Below, piece by piece: positions 4,417 to 52,263 of a DNA stretch of 64,000 nucleotides. The notes under the pieces were generated by a model that was not told where the DNA came from, did not search any database, and saw nothing but the letters and a program-made list of their open reading frames with translations. Within the stretch, counting starts at the first letter, position 1. Every line of letters starts with the position of its first letter. A program made the translations under genes and the position numbers. The stretch is taken from the NCBI RefSeq assembly GCF_019212185.1, contig NZ_CP078138.1:1780501-1844500 (forward strand). Reading direction: 5' to 3'. This DNA comes from Pseudomonas fluorescens (GTDB lineage: Bacteria > Pseudomonadota > Gammaproteobacteria > Pseudomonadales > Pseudomonadaceae).

Positions 4417-5334
4417 TCAGGGTTTGGCGAGGACAATATAGTCTTCGCCGACCTTGCGTCCGTAGTCCTGCAGCACCTGTTGGCACAGCTCGACAATCTC
4501 CTCGACCCACTCCGCCCCCACCCGCCATGACACCACCACCTGCAGGTTGGGCGGACGCTGGGCGATGTCCAGCAGCACCAGTTCGCCCCGCGCCAGTTCC
4601 TCGCTGACCAGCGCCGGTGGCAGTGCGCCGATGCCGAAACCGTCACGCAGCAGGCGGGTGATCGCCGACACCGAGTTCACGCAGTTGAGTCGTGGCGTGA
4701 GCACGCCGTTGGCCTGCATCAGGCTGAGGACTTCCTGGTGCGGGTGGGAGTTTTTCGAGTAGGTGATGATCCGCTCCCGGGCCAGTTCGGCGAGGTCGGC
4801 GTAGTCGCGGTTGTAGATCGACTGGCTGGCGACGATCCAGCCGATCGGGTGACTGGCCAGTTCCAGGCTGCGGACGTTTTCCTGTCGCAGCAGGTCGGTC
4901 TGCAGGGCCAGGTCGAGAAACCCTTTTTGCAGCTGATCGCAGAGGTTGAGCGAGGTGTCCGCCACCAGCTCGATTTCCAGCAGCGGGTAGTGATCGGTGA
5001 TCTGCGCCACCAACGGACTGAGCCAGGTGTGAATCACCGTGTCCATTACCCCGATGCGGATCCGACCGGCCTTGCTCGAACGGGTTTCCAGCGACTGCTT
5101 GAGCGCCTGCATGGTGTCGAGCATGCGCTCGGCATAGTCGAGCACCTTGAGCCCTTCGGGGGTCAGTTTCACGCCCCGCGAATCGCGCAAGAACAGCTTC
5201 ACCCCGAGCTCGCCTTCGAGCACCGCGATGCGGCTGGAAATCGAAGCCTGGGTGGTGAAGAGCTTGTCGGCGGTCAGGCGGAAACTTTTCAACCGGGCGA
5301 CCCAGACGAAGGTTTCGAGGAACTTGAGGTTCAT
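4417..5334 (-). CDS. LysR-family regulator, probably of the 5-oxoproline operon
   Basis: A 305-residue LysR-type protein. The N-terminal winged helix (LKSFRLTADKLFTTQASISSR) is followed by the family's linker helix and a periplasmic-binding-like effector domain. It is divergent from the MFS–pxpABC operon across the 142-base gap 5335-5476. LysR genes often control the divergent operon, so regulation of 5-oxoproline uptake and cleavage is the likely role; this is inference from position. The effector is unknown. Length and domain pattern are complete, with no sign of decay. Confidence 0.9.
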   Translation of the reverse strand: MNLKFLETFVWVARLKSFRLTADKLFTTQASISSRIAVLEGELGVKLFLRDSRGVKLTPEGLKVLDYAERMLDTMQALKQSLETRSSKAGRIRIGVMDTVIHTWLSPLVAQITDHYPLLEIELVADTSLNLCDQLQKGFLDLALQTDLLRQENVRSLELASHPIGWIVASQSIYNRDYADLAELARERIITYSKNSHPHQEVLSLMQANGVLTPRLNCVNSVSAITRLLRDGFGIGALPPALVSEELARGELVLLDIAQRPPNLQVVVSWRVGAEWVEEIVELCQQVLQDYGRKVGEDYIVLAKP

Positions 5335-5476
5335 GTGATCAACTTTTTCTTATGCCTTGGCGCGGGTTTTATTAGTTGGACGGGCAGGGCGGTGCCATCG
5401 AAAAATGTGCCAGGACCCACGATATGCGTCGTAGCGGTCCAGAACAATACCAATAAAAAATCTGCGGAGAATCGCC
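5335..5476. promoter_or_regulatory. Divergent promoter region, LysR / MFS–pxpABC
   Basis: This 142-base gap must carry both start sites. It is richer in A/T near the LysR start (AACTTTTTCTTATG) and near the MFS start (AATACCAATAAAAAATC) than the flanking coding DNA. GGAG at 5465-5468 serves the MFS ATG at 5477. I could not settle on a single T-N11-A LysR site by eye. Confidence 0.5.
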
Positions 5477-6769
5477 ATGAGTGCGCCCGACACGACCGAC
5501 GCCATCCAGCCCGCGGTTGGCAGCCGCCCCGGTCCCTTTGACTGGTATCGCAATATCAACCAGCAAGAGCGCCGGACCTTCTGGAGCTGCAAGATCGGCT
5601 ACGGCCTGGATGGCATGGACACCCAGATGCTCAGCTTCGTGGTGCCAACCCTGATCGCCATGTGGGGCATCACCACCGGTGAAGCCGGCTTGATCCACAC
5701 CAGCACCTTGATCGCCTCGGCCATCGGCGGCTGGGTCGCCGGCATTCTCTCGGACCGCATCGGCCGCGTGCGCACCCTGCAACTGACCGTGCTGTGGTTT
5801 GCCTTCTTCACCTTCCTCTGCGGCTTCGCCCAGAACTACGAACAACTGCTGATTGCGCGGACCCTGATGGGCTTCGGCTTCGGTGGCGAGTGGACCGCCG
5901 GCGCCGTGCTGATCGGCGAAGTGATCCGCGCCAAGGACCGTGGCAAGGCGGTGGGCATGGTGCAGTCGGGCTGGGCGCTGGGTTGGGGACTGACGGCGAT
6001 TCTGTATGCCGTGCTGTTTTCCCTGCTGCCACCGGAGGACGCCTGGCGCGCGCTGTTCCTGTTGGGCATCGTGCCGGCGATTTTTGTGATCTTCGTCCGT
6101 CGCCTGGTCAAGGACCCGGAGATCTACCGCGAAGCCAAGGCCAAACAGGAACCGAGCAACCCATCGAAGTTCTACGAGATCTTCGCCCCCGGCATGCTCA
6201 GCACCACTATTCGCGCCTCGTTGCTGACCACCGGCGCCCTCGGCGGTTACTACGCGATCACCTCCTGGTTGCCGACCTTCCTGAAAAACGAACGCGGCTT
6301 GAGCGTGCTGGGCACGGGCGGCTACCTGGCGATGGTGATCGTCGGTTCTTATGTCGGCTACGTGATCAGCGCCTACTTGACCGACCTGCTGGGGCGCAAA
6401 AAGAACTTCATCTTGTTCGCGGTGGGCTCGTTCGCCATCGTCCTGCTCTACACCCAACTGCCGGTGAGCAATGGCGTGATGCTGTGGCTGGGCTTTCCTC
6501 TGGGGTTCTTTGCCTCGGGGATCTTCAGTGGCATGGGTGCGTTTCTGACCGAGCTGTTCCCGACGCGGATTCGCGGCTCGGGCCAAGGCTTCTGCTACAA
6601 CGTCGGCCGGGCGTTGGCGGCACTGTTCCCGTTGCTGATCGGCCTGTTGAGCCAGAAGGTGCCATTGAGTGTAGGGATTGGCGCGTTTGCCGCGGTGTCC
6701 TACGGCGTGGTGATTCTCGCCGCCCTGAGCCTGCCGGAAACCCGTGGCAAGCAACTCGACGCGCAGTAG
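5477..6769 (+). CDS. MFS transporter, aromatic/organic acid type
   Basis: A 430-residue 12-helix major facilitator protein. The first loop carries GWVAGILSDRIGRVR, matching the family A-motif, and there is a second related motif at SAYLTDLLGRKKN. The opening KIGYGLDGMDTQMLSF resembles sialate/aromatic-acid:proton symporters, where the Asp in helix 1 takes part in proton coupling. It is the first gene of the plus-strand run ending with pxpABC, so 5-oxoproline or a related acid is the most likely substrate, by context only. The inner membrane is the site of action. Confidence 0.88.
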   Translation: MSAPDTTDAIQPAVGSRPGPFDWYRNINQQERRTFWSCKIGYGLDGMDTQMLSFVVPTLIAMWGITTGEAGLIHTSTLIASAIGGWVAGILSDRIGRVRTLQLTVLWFAFFTFLCGFAQNYEQLLIARTLMGFGFGGEWTAGAVLIGEVIRAKDRGKAVGMVQSGWALGWGLTAILYAVLFSLLPPEDAWRALFLLGIVPAIFVIFVRRLVKDPEIYREAKAKQEPSNPSKFYEIFAPGMLSTTIRASLLTTGALGGYYAITSWLPTFLKNERGLSVLGTGGYLAMVIVGSYVGYVISAYLTDLLGRKKNFILFAVGSFAIVLLYTQLPVSNGVMLWLGFPLGFFASGIFSGMGAFLTELFPTRIRGSGQGFCYNVGRALAALFPLLIGLLSQKVPLSVGIGAFAAVSYGVVILAALSLPETRGKQLDAQ

Positions 6770-48408: not shown

Positions 48409-48641
48409 GTAGGAGCCAGCCTGCTGGCGATAGCGGTGGATCAGCCAGCAAATGTATCGACTGGGCTGGCCCCATCGCGAGCAGGCTCGCTCCCACATAG
48501 TTTTTGCGGTGCGCACAATTTCTCTGAGTGATCCGGATCCCCGTGGGAGCTAGCCCTGCTAGCGATGGTCGTCAACGATGACGTGGGCTGTCTGAATAGT
48601 CGCGGTGTCCTGGCGTTTTTCGCTGGCAAGCCAGCTCCTAC
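48409..48641. repeat. Two REP doublets in a 479-base gap
   Basis: First pair: GTAGGAGCCAGCCTGCTGGC at 48409 and an inverted unit ending 48496. Second: GTGGGAGCTAGCCCTGCTAG at 48543 and an inverted unit ending 48641. The rest of the gap 48230-48708 holds only the azoR terminator. Confidence 0.88.
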
Positions 48642-48708
48642 AGAGGACGTGACCTCGCGATCAAGGGCAAAACCCGTTATCGTCGCCGCCATCGAAAATG
48701 AGGCGAAT

Positions 48709-49572
48709 ATGGGCTATCTACTTGTTGTCACGCTGATCCAGGCGTTTTCCTTCAGTTTGATCGGCGAATACCTTGCGGGTCATGTCGACAGTTACTTCGC
48801 GGTGCTGGTGCGGGTGCTGCTGGCCGGGTTGGTGTTCATCCCACTGACCCGCTGGCGCTCGGTGGAGCCTTCGTTCATGCGCGGCATGCTGGTGATCGGC
48901 GCCCTGCAGTTCGGCGTGACCTACGTCTGCCTGTACCTGAGCTTCCGCGTACTGACAGTGCCGGAAGTGCTGTTGTTCACCATCCTCACCCCGCTGCACG
49001 TGACCCTGATCGAAGACGCGCTGAACCGCCGCTTCAATCCCTGGGCCCTGGTCGCGGCTTTGGTAGCCGTGCTCGGCGCCGCGGTGATCCGCTACGACCG
49101 CATCAGCCCCGACTTCCTGATGGGCTTTTTGCTGCTGCAACTGGCCAACTTCACCTACGCCGCCGGGCAAGTCATGTACAAGCACCTGGTCGCCCGCCAC
49201 CCCAGCGACCTGCCGCATTACCGACGCTTCGGCTACTTCTACCTCGGCGCCTTGCTGGTGGTGTTGCCGGCGTTCCTGCTGTTCGGCAAAAGCAACTTCC
49301 TCCCCGAAGCGCCGCTGCAATGGGCCGTGCTGCTGTTCCTCGGCCTGGTCTCGACGGCACTCGGCCTGTACTGGTGGAACAAAGGCGCCTGCCTGGTCAA
49401 CGGCGGCACCCTGGCGGTGATGAACAACCTGCATGTGCCGGTGGGGCTGTTGTTGAACCTGCTGATCTGGAACGAGCATGAAGAGCTCGGGCGGTTATTG
49501 TTGGGAGGCTTGGTGATTATCGGTGCGGTGTGGATCAGTCGGTTGGGCGTGCGCCGAAAATCCCTGGCGTAA
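48709..49572 (+). CDS. DMT-superfamily transporter (EamA)
   Basis: A 287-residue inner-membrane protein starting MGYLLVVTLIQAFSFSLIGEY. It has about ten helices in two repeats and the second repeat includes YWWNKGACLVNGGTLAVMNN, a feature of the carboxylate/amino-acid group of DMT carriers. GAGG lies 7 bases before the ATG at 48709; the longer frame from 48565 has a REP-derived reading and is not used. Substrate unknown. Isolated between the REP-filled gap and the PheRS-like gene. Confidence 0.87.
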   Translation: MGYLLVVTLIQAFSFSLIGEYLAGHVDSYFAVLVRVLLAGLVFIPLTRWRSVEPSFMRGMLVIGALQFGVTYVCLYLSFRVLTVPEVLLFTILTPLHVTLIEDALNRRFNPWALVAALVAVLGAAVIRYDRISPDFLMGFLLLQLANFTYAAGQVMYKHLVARHPSDLPHYRRFGYFYLGALLVVLPAFLLFGKSNFLPEAPLQWAVLLFLGLVSTALGLYWWNKGACLVNGGTLAVMNNLHVPVGLLLNLLIWNEHEELGRLLLGGLVIIGAVWISRLGVRRKSLA

Positions 49573-49642
49573 GAGGGCTCTGTAGTCCTGTTCTGAAAAT
49601 TCAAACCGGCCGCTTTATCGGTTGTAGTGCCCAAAATGTATA

Positions 49643-49703
49643 CGTAGGTTTGGCCTCATGAGGGTTGGCAATTTGTCAGGTCTGCACATGAGGAAAACCT
49701 ACG
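49643..49703 (+). promoter_or_regulatory. Inverted repeat covering the PheRS-like gene's ribosome site
   Basis: CGTAGGTTTGGCCTCATG (49643-49660) pairs with CATGAGGAAAACCTACG (49687-49703): a 7-base and an 8-9-base stem separated by a small bulge, with a 26-base loop. The right arm includes the Shine-Dalgarno GAGGA and ends 1 base before the ATG. If transcription starts upstream, the mRNA hairpin would hide the ribosome site; as DNA it could be an operator. Confidence 0.6.
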
Positions 49704-49704
49704 A

Positions 49705-50853
49705 ATGCATGCGTCGAAAACCTGCCTGGCAACTCCCGCCGTCCAACAGGCCCTATCGCAGATTGACCTGACCAAGCCTTCTTCCCCCGATCACGCCATT
49801 CGGCTGTTGCTCACGCAAATCCTCGACGGGCTCGCCAGCAAAGGCTGGCCGACTGCGCAAATCCAGACCGGCCCACGAATCGTCTCCGCCCAGGAGAACT
49901 ATAGGCTACTGGGCTACGACCCGGCTGAAATCACCCTGGGCAGCGAACACACCCGTTGGGTCGATGAGTGTTCGTTGCTGCGCACCCAGACCACCAGTCA
50001 GATTCCGGCGGCACTGCAGCGGGCGGCCGAGCAGCGTCGAGCGGGTGAAACCGTTCTGCTGGCGGCGCCCGGGATTACGTTCCGGCGTGACAGTCGCGAT
50101 CGGTGGCATTGCGCCGAACCCCATCAGATGGACATCTGGGTCCTGGGCGAGCCGGAACTGGCGACGCGTGAGCACTTGCTGCGGCTGGTCGGCGACATTC
50201 TCCAATTGGCGGTGCCTGACGCTGCCTGGGTCCATAGCGATAGCCCGCACCATTACACCGAGGGTGGAATCGAAATCAATGTGCTCAACGATGGGCAACC
50301 GGTGGAGGTGCTGGAGTGCGGCTGCATCGCGAAGTCGTTGTTGCAACGGTTGCAGATCGATCCCGCCCGCCATGGCGGACTGGCCCTGGGCATGGGGCTG
50401 GATCGCCTGACCATGTTACGCAAAGGCATCCCTGACATTCGTTTGCTGCGCGACACCAACGAGCGAGTGCAAGCACAGATGCATGACCTGCTGCCCTGGC
50501 GCGCGGTTTCACGGTTGCCGTCGATTACCCGGGACATATCCCTGGCGGTCACCCCGGGGCAAAGCGAGGAACTATTGACGGAAAAAATGCTACTGGCGGC
50601 TGGAGAGTGTTCAGGCTGGATCGAAGAGATGCAGATAATCGGGCGCTGGGGCGAAGCGCAACTTCCTGTGCAGGCCATCGAGCGATTGGGGTTGTTGCCG
50701 GGCCAGGAAAACCTCTTGCTGCGGGTGGTTCTGCGCGATTGTTCCCGCTCGATCACCGCCGCTGAGGCCAATGCGGTGTACCAGCGGATTCAAACCGCAC
50801 TGCATGAGGGGGCGCCCGGGGCTGGCTACAAGATGGACCTTCATCAGGGTTAG
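49705..50853 (+). CDS. Single-chain phenylalanyl-tRNA synthetase-like protein
   Basis: A 382-residue class II synthetase-like protein. Blocks shared with PheS are SLLRTQTTSQIP (near 90), the motif-2-like FRRDSRDRWHCAEPHQM (126-142), the TEGGIEINV and VEVLECGCI strands, and motif 3 GLALGMGLDRLTMLRKGIPD (225-244). Unlike PheS it has a C-terminal anticodon-binding FDX-ACB domain (about 263-382; PSITRDISLAVTPG), which in bacteria normally belongs to PheT. The layout is that of mitochondrial PheRS. No pheT or regular pheST operon is in this window. Function (tRNA charging, resistance or a biosynthetic role) is unknown. Confidence 0.85.
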   Translation: MHASKTCLATPAVQQALSQIDLTKPSSPDHAIRLLLTQILDGLASKGWPTAQIQTGPRIVSAQENYRLLGYDPAEITLGSEHTRWVDECSLLRTQTTSQIPAALQRAAEQRRAGETVLLAAPGITFRRDSRDRWHCAEPHQMDIWVLGEPELATREHLLRLVGDILQLAVPDAAWVHSDSPHHYTEGGIEINVLNDGQPVEVLECGCIAKSLLQRLQIDPARHGGLALGMGLDRLTMLRKGIPDIRLLRDTNERVQAQMHDLLPWRAVSRLPSITRDISLAVTPGQSEELLTEKMLLAAGECSGWIEEMQIIGRWGEAQLPVQAIERLGLLPGQENLLLRVVLRDCSRSITAAEANAVYQRIQTALHEGAPGAGYKMDLHQG

Positions 50854-50872
50854 CACCTTTGCGCAAAGGTGC
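50853..50872. other. Perfect palindrome overlapping the PheRS-like stop
   Basis: GCACCTTTGCGCAAAGGTGC is a perfect 20-base palindrome whose first base is the last base of the stop codon. No T-run follows. It could be a hairpin or a protein-binding site. Confidence 0.6.
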
Positions 50873-50964
50873 CGGGGGAGGGAGGCGCGACGCTCGTCCT
50901 CAACCAAAGCGCCGCGTTTTTCCAAGGGGGCCATCTTGCATTGCTTCGCGGTGATGCAGCCTGA

Positions 50965-52263
50965 TCAGCCCGTGTGCTTCTCCAACTGCGCTACAGAGCT
51001 GGCCCCCAGCACCGCCGGCAGAATCCCGGCGCGCAGATCATTACCGCTCGGCTGCTGATACAAGCTCAAGCCAAACTCCGGCAGCACCGCCAGCAGATAA
51101 TCGAAAATATCGCCCTGAATACGTTCGTAATCGGCCCAGGCGGTGGTTCGGGTGAAGCAGTAGATTTCCAGCGGGATGCCCTGGGCGGTGGTCTGCATCT
51201 GGCGGACCATGCAGGTCATGTTCGGCTGGATTTCCGGGTGGCTCTTCAGGTAGGCCAGGGCATAGGCGCGGAAGGTGCCGATGTTGGTCATGCGCCGGCG
51301 GTTGGCGGACATTGCCGCGACATTGCCCTGGGCCTCGTTCCAGGCCTTGAGCTCGGCTTGTTTGCGGCCCATGTAGTCGGTGAGCAGGCGCACCTGGGTC
51401 AGGCGCTGCTCTTCGTCATCGGTGATGAAACGCACGCCGCTGGCATCGATAAACAGGCTGCGCTTGATCCGCCGACCACCGGAGGCCTGCATGCCGCGCC
51501 AGTTCTTGAAGGATTCGGACATCAGGCGCCAGGTGGGGATCGAGACGATGGTCTTGTCGAAATTCTGCACTTTGACCGTGTGCAGGGTGATGTCGACCAC
51601 GTCGCCATCGGCACCGACTTGTGGCATTTCGATCCAGTCGCCGACCCGCAGCATGTCGTTGCTGGTCAGTTGTACGCTGGCGACGAAGGACAGCAGGGTG
51701 TCCTTGTAGACCAACAGAATCACCGCCGACATGGCGCCGAGACCGGACAGCAGTAATAGCGGCGAACGGTCGATCAGGGTGGCGACGATGATGATCGCGC
51801 CAAACACGAACAACACCATCTTCGCCAGCTGCACGTAGCCCTTGATCGAGCGGGTGCGCGCGTGTTCGGTGCGGGCATAGATGTCGAGCAGGGCGCTGAG
51901 CAGGGCGCTGATGGCCAGCGTCAGGAACAGGATGGTGAACGCCAGGGCGAGATTGTCGAGGAAGTTCAGGGTGATTTTGTTCAGTTCGGGAATCAGGTTC
52001 AGGCCGAACTGCACCACCAGCGATGGCGTCATCTGTGCCAGGCGATGGAAGACTTTGTTGTGCAACAGGTCATTGACCCAGTGCAGGGTCGGCTGCCGGC
52101 CAAGTAACTTGACGCCTTGCAGGATCAGGTAGCGCGCCACTCGTCCAACGATCAGTGCCACCGCCAGCAAGGCCAGCAGGGCCAGGGCGGAGTACAGACG
52201 CGGGTGCTGCTCCAGGGTTGTCCAGAGTTCCTGGGTGTTGAGCCAAAGCTGTTTGAGATCCAT
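50965..52263 (-). CDS. MscS-family mechanosensitive channel
   Basis: A 432-residue protein. Three to five N-terminal helices span about 20-200, then the MscS pore-lining helix and beta domain (GLGAMSAVILLVYKDTLLSFVAS; GDWIEMPQVGADGDVVDITLHTVKVQNFDKTIVSIP). The length matches YbdG/MscM-type small-conductance channels, not the 286-residue MscS. It opens under membrane tension in the inner membrane to release solutes in osmotic downshock. It is divergent from the DEAD-box gene and tail-to-tail with the PheRS-like gene, 111 bases apart. Confidence 0.92.
   Translation of the reverse strand: MDLKQLWLNTQELWTTLEQHPRLYSALALLALLAVALIVGRVARYLILQGVKLLGRQPTLHWVNDLLHNKVFHRLAQMTPSLVVQFGLNLIPELNKITLNFLDNLALAFTILFLTLAISALLSALLDIYARTEHARTRSIKGYVQLAKMVLFVFGAIIIVATLIDRSPLLLLSGLGAMSAVILLVYKDTLLSFVASVQLTSNDMLRVGDWIEMPQVGADGDVVDITLHTVKVQNFDKTIVSIPTWRLMSESFKNWRGMQASGGRRIKRSLFIDASGVRFITDDEEQRLTQVRLLTDYMGRKQAELKAWNEAQGNVAAMSANRRRMTNIGTFRAYALAYLKSHPEIQPNMTCMVRQMQTTAQGIPLEIYCFTRTTAWADYERIQGDIFDYLLAVLPEFGLSLYQQPSGNDLRAGILPAVLGASSVAQLEKHTG

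Follow-up and report, generated by a model that had tools for sequence, protein, structure and literature searches.

The gene srmL lies within a 64,000-nucleotide stretch of the Pseudomonas fluorescens genome (assembly GCF_019212185.1, contig NZ_CP078138.1, forward-strand positions 1,780,501 to 1,844,500; hereafter the window) and encodes a single-chain relative of phenylalanyl-tRNA synthetase (PheRS). In many Pseudomonas relatives, the gene stands beside a small precursor peptide gene and a gene for a homologue of the crocagin biosynthesis protein CgnB. On balance, and only just, we think it probable that SrmL is a spare, inhibitor-resistant PheRS that forms the immunity half of this peptide cassette. 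Comparison with relatives suggests that the window copy is an orphan left after loss of the peptide genes. The gene and its two domains are as follows.

49705..50853, + strand: srmL; ATG start, 382 residues, no internal stop; single-chain PheS-like plus FDX-ACB protein
49792..50478, + strand: class II (PheS-like) catalytic domain, residues 30-258 (Pfam tRNA-synt_2d and residue check)
50509..50808, + strand: FDX-ACB domain, residues 269-368 (sub-cut-off Pfam match and family conservation)

The original prediction, made from the letters of the window, had described a PheS-like core joined to an FDX-ACB domain in one chain of 382 residues, as in mitochondrial PheRS, lacking both the N-terminal coiled coil of PheS and the editing domains of PheT. 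All of these points were borne out. The Pfam model tRNA-synt_2d matches residues 30-258 with 79.4 bits (cut-off 19.8), and the FDX-ACB model matches residues 269-368 with 25.7 bits (E = 1.6e-5), under its curated cut-off of 31.1; further support for the C-terminal half comes from its conservation across the family and from the NCBIfam model NF051887 ('PheS-related mystery ligase SrmL'), which extends across residues 21-369. The match to NF051887 covers positions 3-349 of 349 and scores 435 bits against a cut-off of 300, placing the protein in the SrmL family. A match of this strength is not due to chance, and the open reading frame (ORF) is confirmed as a genuine gene. Window SrmL does not belong to the PheS family (TIGR00468, 74.8 bits versus a cut-off of 237.45) or to the mitochondrial PheRS family (TIGR00469, 80.1 bits versus 258.35). 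The mitochondrial model outscores the PheS model in six of seven SrmL members compared, all of which fall far under both cut-offs; the closest solved structures are bacterial PheS chains, followed by mitochondrial PheRS. PHROG 19793, an entry with no function, also matches SrmL. None of the 18 aligned SrmL rows has an equivalent of the N-terminal region of PheS (to about residue 64 in the genome's own PheS), and 382 residues leave no room for PheT editing domains. Housekeeping genes for PheS (G000:C1:2356608-2357312) and PheT (G000:C1:2357342-2359714, 855 bits) are present in the same genome, about 0.53 Mb from srmL.

We aligned 18 SrmL proteins with 30 PheS proteins, using the numbering of the genome's own PheS for the amino-acid pocket. 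The motif and ATP-site residues R127, D129, D132, H135, H140, Q141, G206, G231 and R234 are kept in all 18 SrmL proteins; R127, D129, H135, G231 and R234 are those of class II motifs 2 and 3. The segments LLRTQTT, FRRDSRDRWH and LGMGLDRLTM, picked out in the original prediction, all align with PheS. Broken ATP and Phe pockets had been named as a finding that would make an enzymatic role unlikely; the ATP-site and motif residues are kept, and several Phe-pocket positions are changed family-wide, as detailed below.

To survey relatives, we used a pattern-based scan with the window protein over one genome per species (84,980 species), which is best at detecting close relatives. It yielded 58 srmL loci, comprising 51 from Pseudomonas (L001-L050 and the fragment L058), five from Cyanobacteria and two from Falkowbacteria. 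Of the 50 Pseudomonas loci L001-L050, 24 have a full-length CgnB-like gene, eight have a fragment of it and 18 lack it, although at L021 just 1.2 kb of sequence is available upstream of srmL, making absence of the cassette less sure there. A precursor gene is found in 28 of the 50: in every one of the 24 loci whose CgnB-like gene is full, in four where it is broken, and in none of the 18 without. At 24 of the 50 loci, though not in the window, srmL stands head to head with a precursor gene and a full CgnB-like gene.

The CgnB-like gene and srmL are 399-477 bp apart (17 loci). No significant Pfam match was found for five copies of the CgnB-like protein and no NCBIfam match for four copies; however, a profile built from ten copies finds CgnB (6zsv, E = 4.8e-22) and CgnE (6zsu, E = 4.6e-11), with the CgnB homology spanning profile positions 79-302 of 307. 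CgnB and CgnE act in the biosynthesis of crocagin, a ribosomally synthesised and post-translationally modified peptide (RiPP), and CgnB is described as a dimetal peptide-binding protein with metal ligands E161, E252, E274, H280, H291 and D293 (PMC10070186). The corresponding residues of the CgnB-like protein, E161, E253, E276, H282, H293 and D295, are invariant in 10 of 10 rows, as mapped by hand from a HMMER alignment onto the published numbering with an offset of 8. We conclude from homology over most of its length and from the presence of all six ligands that the partner gene belongs to the CgnB/CgnE family.

The precursor gene is tiny (about 33 codons, e.g. MKKKKIIKEKLNRITSGPDNFGWAPLAWAHTGE) and lies between srmL and the CgnB-like gene, on the strand of the latter. 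It encodes a mostly basic leader and a conserved, aromatic core, NFGWAPLAW, the general form of which is F-x-W-x-P-L-x-W with a variable tail; two divergent copies stop just past the motif (..GFTWPPLSWP and ..GFSWPPLAWA). The sequence AGGA occurs within 15 bases ahead of the start in 26 of 28 copies. Pairwise codon comparison of the 28 copies over the 18 core codons gave 2891 synonymous and 1090 non-synonymous differences; the median ratio of non-synonymous to synonymous substitution rates (dN/dS) is 0.04 (223 pairs), and the F, both W, one P and the L are fixed. We conclude from the codon pattern and the fixed core residues that this is a real peptide gene, and one that looks like a RiPP precursor. 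A short conserved precursor beside a modifying or peptide-binding protein, the arrangement expected of a RiPP cassette, is thus present in 28 of the 50 loci and absent from the window.

In searches that did not start from srmL, we examined 199 Pseudomonas genomes with the CgnB-like profile and with a DNA pattern for the precursor, and the window's own genome for CgnB-like genes. The profile matches 16 of the 199 genomes; seven of these have an intact gene of cassette type (514-558 bits) and one more has a broken copy, and all eight carry srmL. The precursor pattern, which is built on the common core and would not detect the forms at L039 and L041, matches exactly these eight genomes, once each, whereas a reversed control pattern matches none of the 199. 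By comparison, srmL is present in 16 of the 199 genomes (E <= 1e-60), and in nine of these it is not accompanied by an intact CgnB-like gene. Since the peptide genes occur only with srmL and srmL often occurs without them, we conclude that the peptide genes of these genomes depend on srmL, which itself does not depend on them.

The cassette has repeatedly lost its peptide half. Single linkage on flanking DNA assigns 52 loci (the 50 loci, L119 and the window) to 20 sites, and eight of these sites include intact as well as damaged cassettes. L040 is grouped with the window, with which it shares a DUF899 gene, despite lacking the EamA-type gene, and the number of sites may therefore exceed 20. 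On the srmL tree, and taking the cassette as ancestral, the full CgnB-like gene has been lost 20 times, or 19 times if L047 and L048, which count separately because the root is placed between them, are taken as one. By contrast, srmL is split in only one of the 50 loci (L044). We computed dN/dS for the 99 of 1225 srmL pairs with dS between 0.05 and 1.0, of which 86 fall in the classes compared and 13 are fragment/orphan pairs. The medians include 0.104 for orphan srmL (12 pairs), 0.078 for cassette-linked srmL (21 pairs) and 0.090 for comparisons across these two groups (32 pairs). Orphan srmL is thus under purifying selection, with slight relaxation but no visible decay outside L047/L048 and L044.

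The window site itself illustrates such a loss. Its features are listed below.

49579..49640, + strand: upstream block of srmL, TCTGTAGTCC..TTCTGAAAAT..GTTGTAG, common to cassette-bearing relatives; end approximate
49557..49578, no strand: junction of 22 bp; its counterpart in the same-site relative L001 is 1305 bp long and holds the CgnB-like and precursor genes
48703..49572, + strand: left-flank EamA-type transporter gene (TIGR00950, 243 bits), shared with L001; a site marker outside the cassette
50965..52263, - strand: right-flank MscS-like gene, a site marker; named by eye, no NCBIfam match

Locus L001 occupies the same site (EamA, srmL, MscS) and has a full cassette. Homology between the two stops at window position 49556 and restarts at 49579, such that 1.3 kb is missing from the window, and elsewhere in the window's own genome we found neither a CgnB-like match (E <= 1e-5) nor the precursor pattern. 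The two srmL genes differ by a dN of 0.127 and a dS of 1.85, the latter near saturation. These data suggest that window srmL was orphaned by loss of the peptide genes, which would be why those genes could not be seen from the window sequence. A link to the window neighbours (the EamA-type transporter, azoreductase, LysR and MscS genes) was considered and dropped, given that L001 and the fragment L058 are the only ones of the 58 loci to share them. Membership of a known defence system was dropped too, as PADLOC gave no match for the three proteins tested, and Rfam detected no RNA element across window positions 48500-51200.

Outside Pseudomonas, srmL is found in a 635-kb phage record and in four viral contigs of 181-578 kb. 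In the phage contig L104, 31 tRNA genes lie within 32 kb, and the only two for tRNA-Phe(GAA) adjoin srmL, one on either side; by simple arithmetic, this arrangement has a chance of 1 in 465 if tRNA labels are random. L105 has 40 tRNA genes, and one of its two tRNA-Phe genes lies about 120 bp upstream of srmL, with one tRNA-Val gene in between. In L103, srmL is located amid genes for SerRS (440 bits) and TrpRS-like, HisRS-like and GlyRS-like proteins and 28 tRNA genes, with its two tRNA-Phe genes 7.8 kb away. The synthetase genes of L103 (1511-5980 and 12229-13029) encode a full SerRS and short TrpRS-like (240 residues), HisRS-like (211 residues) and GlyRS-like (266 residues) proteins. None of the five phage records has another PheS match above 17 bits, or a PheT match outside the srmL region. 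Among the cellular genomes probed, PheT exceeds its cut-off in nine of nine and PheS in seven of eight, with PheS in two pieces in the eighth. Separately, the 181-kb viral contig L102, which also carries srmL, has a permuted-type transfer-messenger RNA gene (1862-2237).

More broadly, srmL is rare and scattered. SrmL scores above the family cut-off in 11 of 95 relatives (own genome counted). It occurs in the own genome alone within a draw of 299 genomes from its phylum, in one of 292 genomes of the Scytonema phylum and in two of 286 of the Falkowbacterium phylum (centre genome counted in each). Copies are also found on a Glutamicibacter plasmid, beside Cmx efflux and predicted tet(33) genes, and on an Azotobacter plasmid, near transposases; a Corynebacterium diphtheriae plasmid has an incomplete copy (L100, 11585-12229) flanked by predicted erm(X) and tetracycline efflux (tet) genes. 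No CgnB-like gene or precursor motif was found near srmL in the loci fetched from phages, plasmids, Cyanobacteria and Falkowbacteria. A 62-protein tree groups all 50 of its Pseudomonas rows (the window and 49 loci) in a single clade with 100/100 support, on a long stem of 2.41. The contig-end fragments L057 and L058, L100, L044 and L054 (a near copy of L052) were left out of alignments and trees. In both Falkowbacteria loci (L051, 106-2194; L055, 3646-5719), srmL is divergent from a conserved radical SAM/SPASM and amidohydrolase-like gene pair; a functional link to this pair was dropped, as the pairing is confined to these two loci.

Some CgnB-like genes occur in other settings. A second type (L115, L116 and L146-L149; 336-345 bits to the ten-copy profile) lies beside proline iminopeptidase-like genes, adjoined where seen by a D-aminoacyl-tRNA deacylase-like gene (gene names by eye); srmL and the precursor pattern are absent from these genomes, and L115 and L116 have no convincing small ORF. 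In L151 (G447, - strand), from a Pseudomonas genome without srmL, a small basic peptide ORF ending ..LENAYW (6115-6228) lies a short way ahead of a distant CgnB-like gene (5054-5959), so the locus is near the crocagin pattern, with its ..YW core. A Thermus thermophilus plasmid gene (L114, 7932-10627), followed by an ABC transporter pair, has 24.9% identity to the CgnB-like partner.

An extra copy of a target that lies beside peptide genes, is needed by them, outlives them and is also found without them fits the pattern of self-resistance. There are precedents: ObaO, a second ThrRS, provides self-resistance to obafluorin in P. fluorescens (PMC11252418), and microcin C demonstrates that a ribosomal peptide can target a synthetase (PMC7136475). 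On these grounds, our proposal is that the mature peptide acts by inhibiting PheRS, with SrmL as the resistant spare. The CgnB-like dimetal protein, encoded with the precursor on one strand, would bind and modify the F-x-W-x-P-L-x-W peptide, with further maturation to follow; the mature peptide would block housekeeping PheRS, while SrmL, encoded on the other strand as the immunity gene, would go on charging tRNA-Phe with Phe despite the peptide. Where the peptide genes are lost, as in the window, srmL could persist as a resistance gene, and it could move without them on plasmids and in huge phages. The chemistry, target and export of the peptide, and the resistance of SrmL to it, are predicted here from sequence. 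More tentatively, and somewhat short of an even chance, pseudomonads may carry a new kind of antibiotic cassette, mobile and made of three genes, in which a ribosomal peptide processed by a lone CgnB-like dimetal protein inhibits PheRS and a single-chain resistant PheRS confers immunity. A resistant PheRS of the same kind would then circulate without the peptide genes in other phyla, next to resistance genes on plasmids, and would serve huge phages as their own PheRS.

Several observations weigh against SrmL being a resistant PheRS tied to the peptide. The Phe side-chain pocket of bacterial PheS is not conserved: relative to the 30 PheS proteins, which were chosen by a pattern requiring an FPF or FTF loop (all 30 loci passed it), F248 is changed to H, F250 to Y and G282 to E in 17 of 18 SrmL proteins each, and S254 to G, F206 to P, M205 to E and E210 to D in all 18. 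Given that the pocket differs family-wide, SrmL might use an amino acid other than Phe. The FPF loop is also different in the PheRS of archaea and of the eukaryotic cytosol. Since the phage members beside tRNA-Phe have the same pocket as the others, Phe stays the likeliest substrate. The long stem of the Pseudomonas clade suggests that function there may differ from that of the phage members, and two of the five phage records, L101 (17 kb) and L102 (13 kb), have no tRNA array near srmL. One orphan lineage, L047 and L048 (6001-7143), has a divergent srmL homologue (53% identity) without the H/Y pocket and with the first Gly of motif 3 replaced, which is decaying or altered in function; orphan srmL as a whole has a slightly higher dN/dS than cassette-linked srmL. 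The 50 Pseudomonas loci were ascertained on srmL itself, and eight other, more distant CgnB-like genes (99-345 bits) among the 199 genomes occur without srmL. Lastly, in the flanks of the srmL loci we saw no further gene conserved across sites, such as an exporter, protease or oxygenase, that might mature and export the peptide.

Of the three roles first proposed, the inhibitor-resistant spare synthetase is favoured by the precursor and CgnB-like genes of relatives, and the tRNA-dependent biosynthetic enzyme has become its main rival. As a tailoring enzyme, SrmL would adenylate an amino acid, or the precursor carboxylate, and join it to the peptide, with or without tRNA, alongside the CgnB-like protein. 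Its adjacency, at 24 of the 50 loci, to a precursor gene and a CgnB-like gene, the restriction of cassette-type CgnB and precursor genes to srmL genomes among the 199, the remodelled pocket and the scarcity of other modifying enzymes in the cassette are all consistent with this. However, a tailoring role must account for srmL often outliving the precursor under purifying selection, a pattern that an immunity gene fits better, and for phage, plasmid, Cyanobacteria and Falkowbacteria loci that have the same pocket residues but neither a CgnB-like gene nor a precursor motif; the FDX-ACB half is also retained. We consider tailoring unlikely. Slightly less likely again is an accessory synthetase unrelated to the peptide, either a back-up PheRS for stress or an enzyme that charges tRNA-Phe, or a tRNA akin to it, with a different amino acid, linked to the cassette by the chance of mobility. 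Most lineages carry srmL without a cassette, orphan copies are retained, phage srmL sits amid tRNA and synthetase genes, and the pocket is changed, all of which an accessory enzyme would explain; chance linkage accords poorly with a head-to-head unit that recurs at many sites (the 52 loci fall into 20), with a precursor beside all 24 full CgnB-like genes, and with peptide genes that never occur without srmL in 199 genomes.

The dependence of the peptide genes on srmL, the lack of an exporter conserved across sites and the occurrence of the unit at several chromosomal sites would also fit an intracellular addiction module, in which the peptide acts within the producer cell and SrmL is the antidote, with no exported antibiotic involved. 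The peptide half is often lost while the host lineage survives, which fits either view, but homology to CgnB suggests natural-product biosynthesis (PMC10070186), and we regard an addiction module as improbable. A decayed remnant had been raised as an alternative at the outset; the idea that window srmL is a functionless remnant of a lost cassette is very improbable: the peptide half is gone from the site and from the genome, but the full ORF, its motifs and the upstream block are retained, orphans as a group have a dN/dS of about 0.1, and window srmL differs from that of L001 by a dN of 0.127 against a dS near saturation.

The proposed reading offers a testable function for a family that NCBI calls just a 'mystery ligase', the cassette points to a peptide that may hit PheRS, and the 24 intact cassettes are candidates for expression. 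Bacteria and huge phages alike are seen to encode a compact PheRS-like enzyme of a single chain, and the window demonstrates that an orphan gene with no local clue, its decisive neighbours missing, can be read through its relatives. Homologues of CgnB and CgnE in about 100 genomes, including Gammaproteobacteria, with candidate precursors near single copies, have been described (PMC10070186); the family name SrmL, these homologues and the single-copy candidate precursors were thus already known, and the pairing with a PheRS-like gene lies outside the main text of that paper. The single-copy candidate precursors described there may already include the Pseudomonas peptides reported here. In the open-access literature, we found no paper combining PheRS, RiPP and self-resistance; no case, judged by title, of PheRS with a natural product gene cluster and a resistance gene; and, for CgnB with precursor peptide and tRNA, only PMC10070186. 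Among the matches listed for 'SrmL', all had other meanings of the letters, judged by title.

SrmL can be compared with five known systems. Window SrmL belongs to the same family as NF051887 over a near-complete profile length; the name of that model carries no function, and the cassette, the phage tRNA-Phe link and the orphan state are added by the present analysis. Like mitochondrial PheRS (FARS2; TIGR00469), SrmL combines the core and FDX-ACB in one chain without editing domains, and its profile matches to 5mgh and 3cmq span the core and reach into the beginning of FDX-ACB, but 5mgh has an FPFT loop where SrmL has H-x-Y-T. The core aligns with E. coli PheS (TIGR00468) at an E-value of about 3e-18, whereas SrmL lacks the N-terminal coiled-coil region of bacterial PheS and has an FDX-ACB domain of its own. 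The partner gene in relatives resembles CgnB/CgnE of crocagin in homology, in metal ligands and in an adjoining short precursor with a basic leader; it differs in being single-copy, in a core of F.W.PL.W plus variable tail rather than ..YW, and in its pairing with a PheRS-like gene, the word 'synthetase' never being used in the main text of PMC10070186. ObaO keeps the substrate residues of ThrRS (PMC11252418), unlike SrmL, which has a layout unlike that of housekeeping PheRS, a changed pocket and a putative resistance function. Nevertheless, ObaO is likewise an additional synthetase, for self-resistance in P. fluorescens, and the combination of a second copy with biosynthetic linkage is also seen for srmL, given PheT in nine of nine cellular genomes and linkage in 24 of 50 loci, with the window copy itself unlinked.
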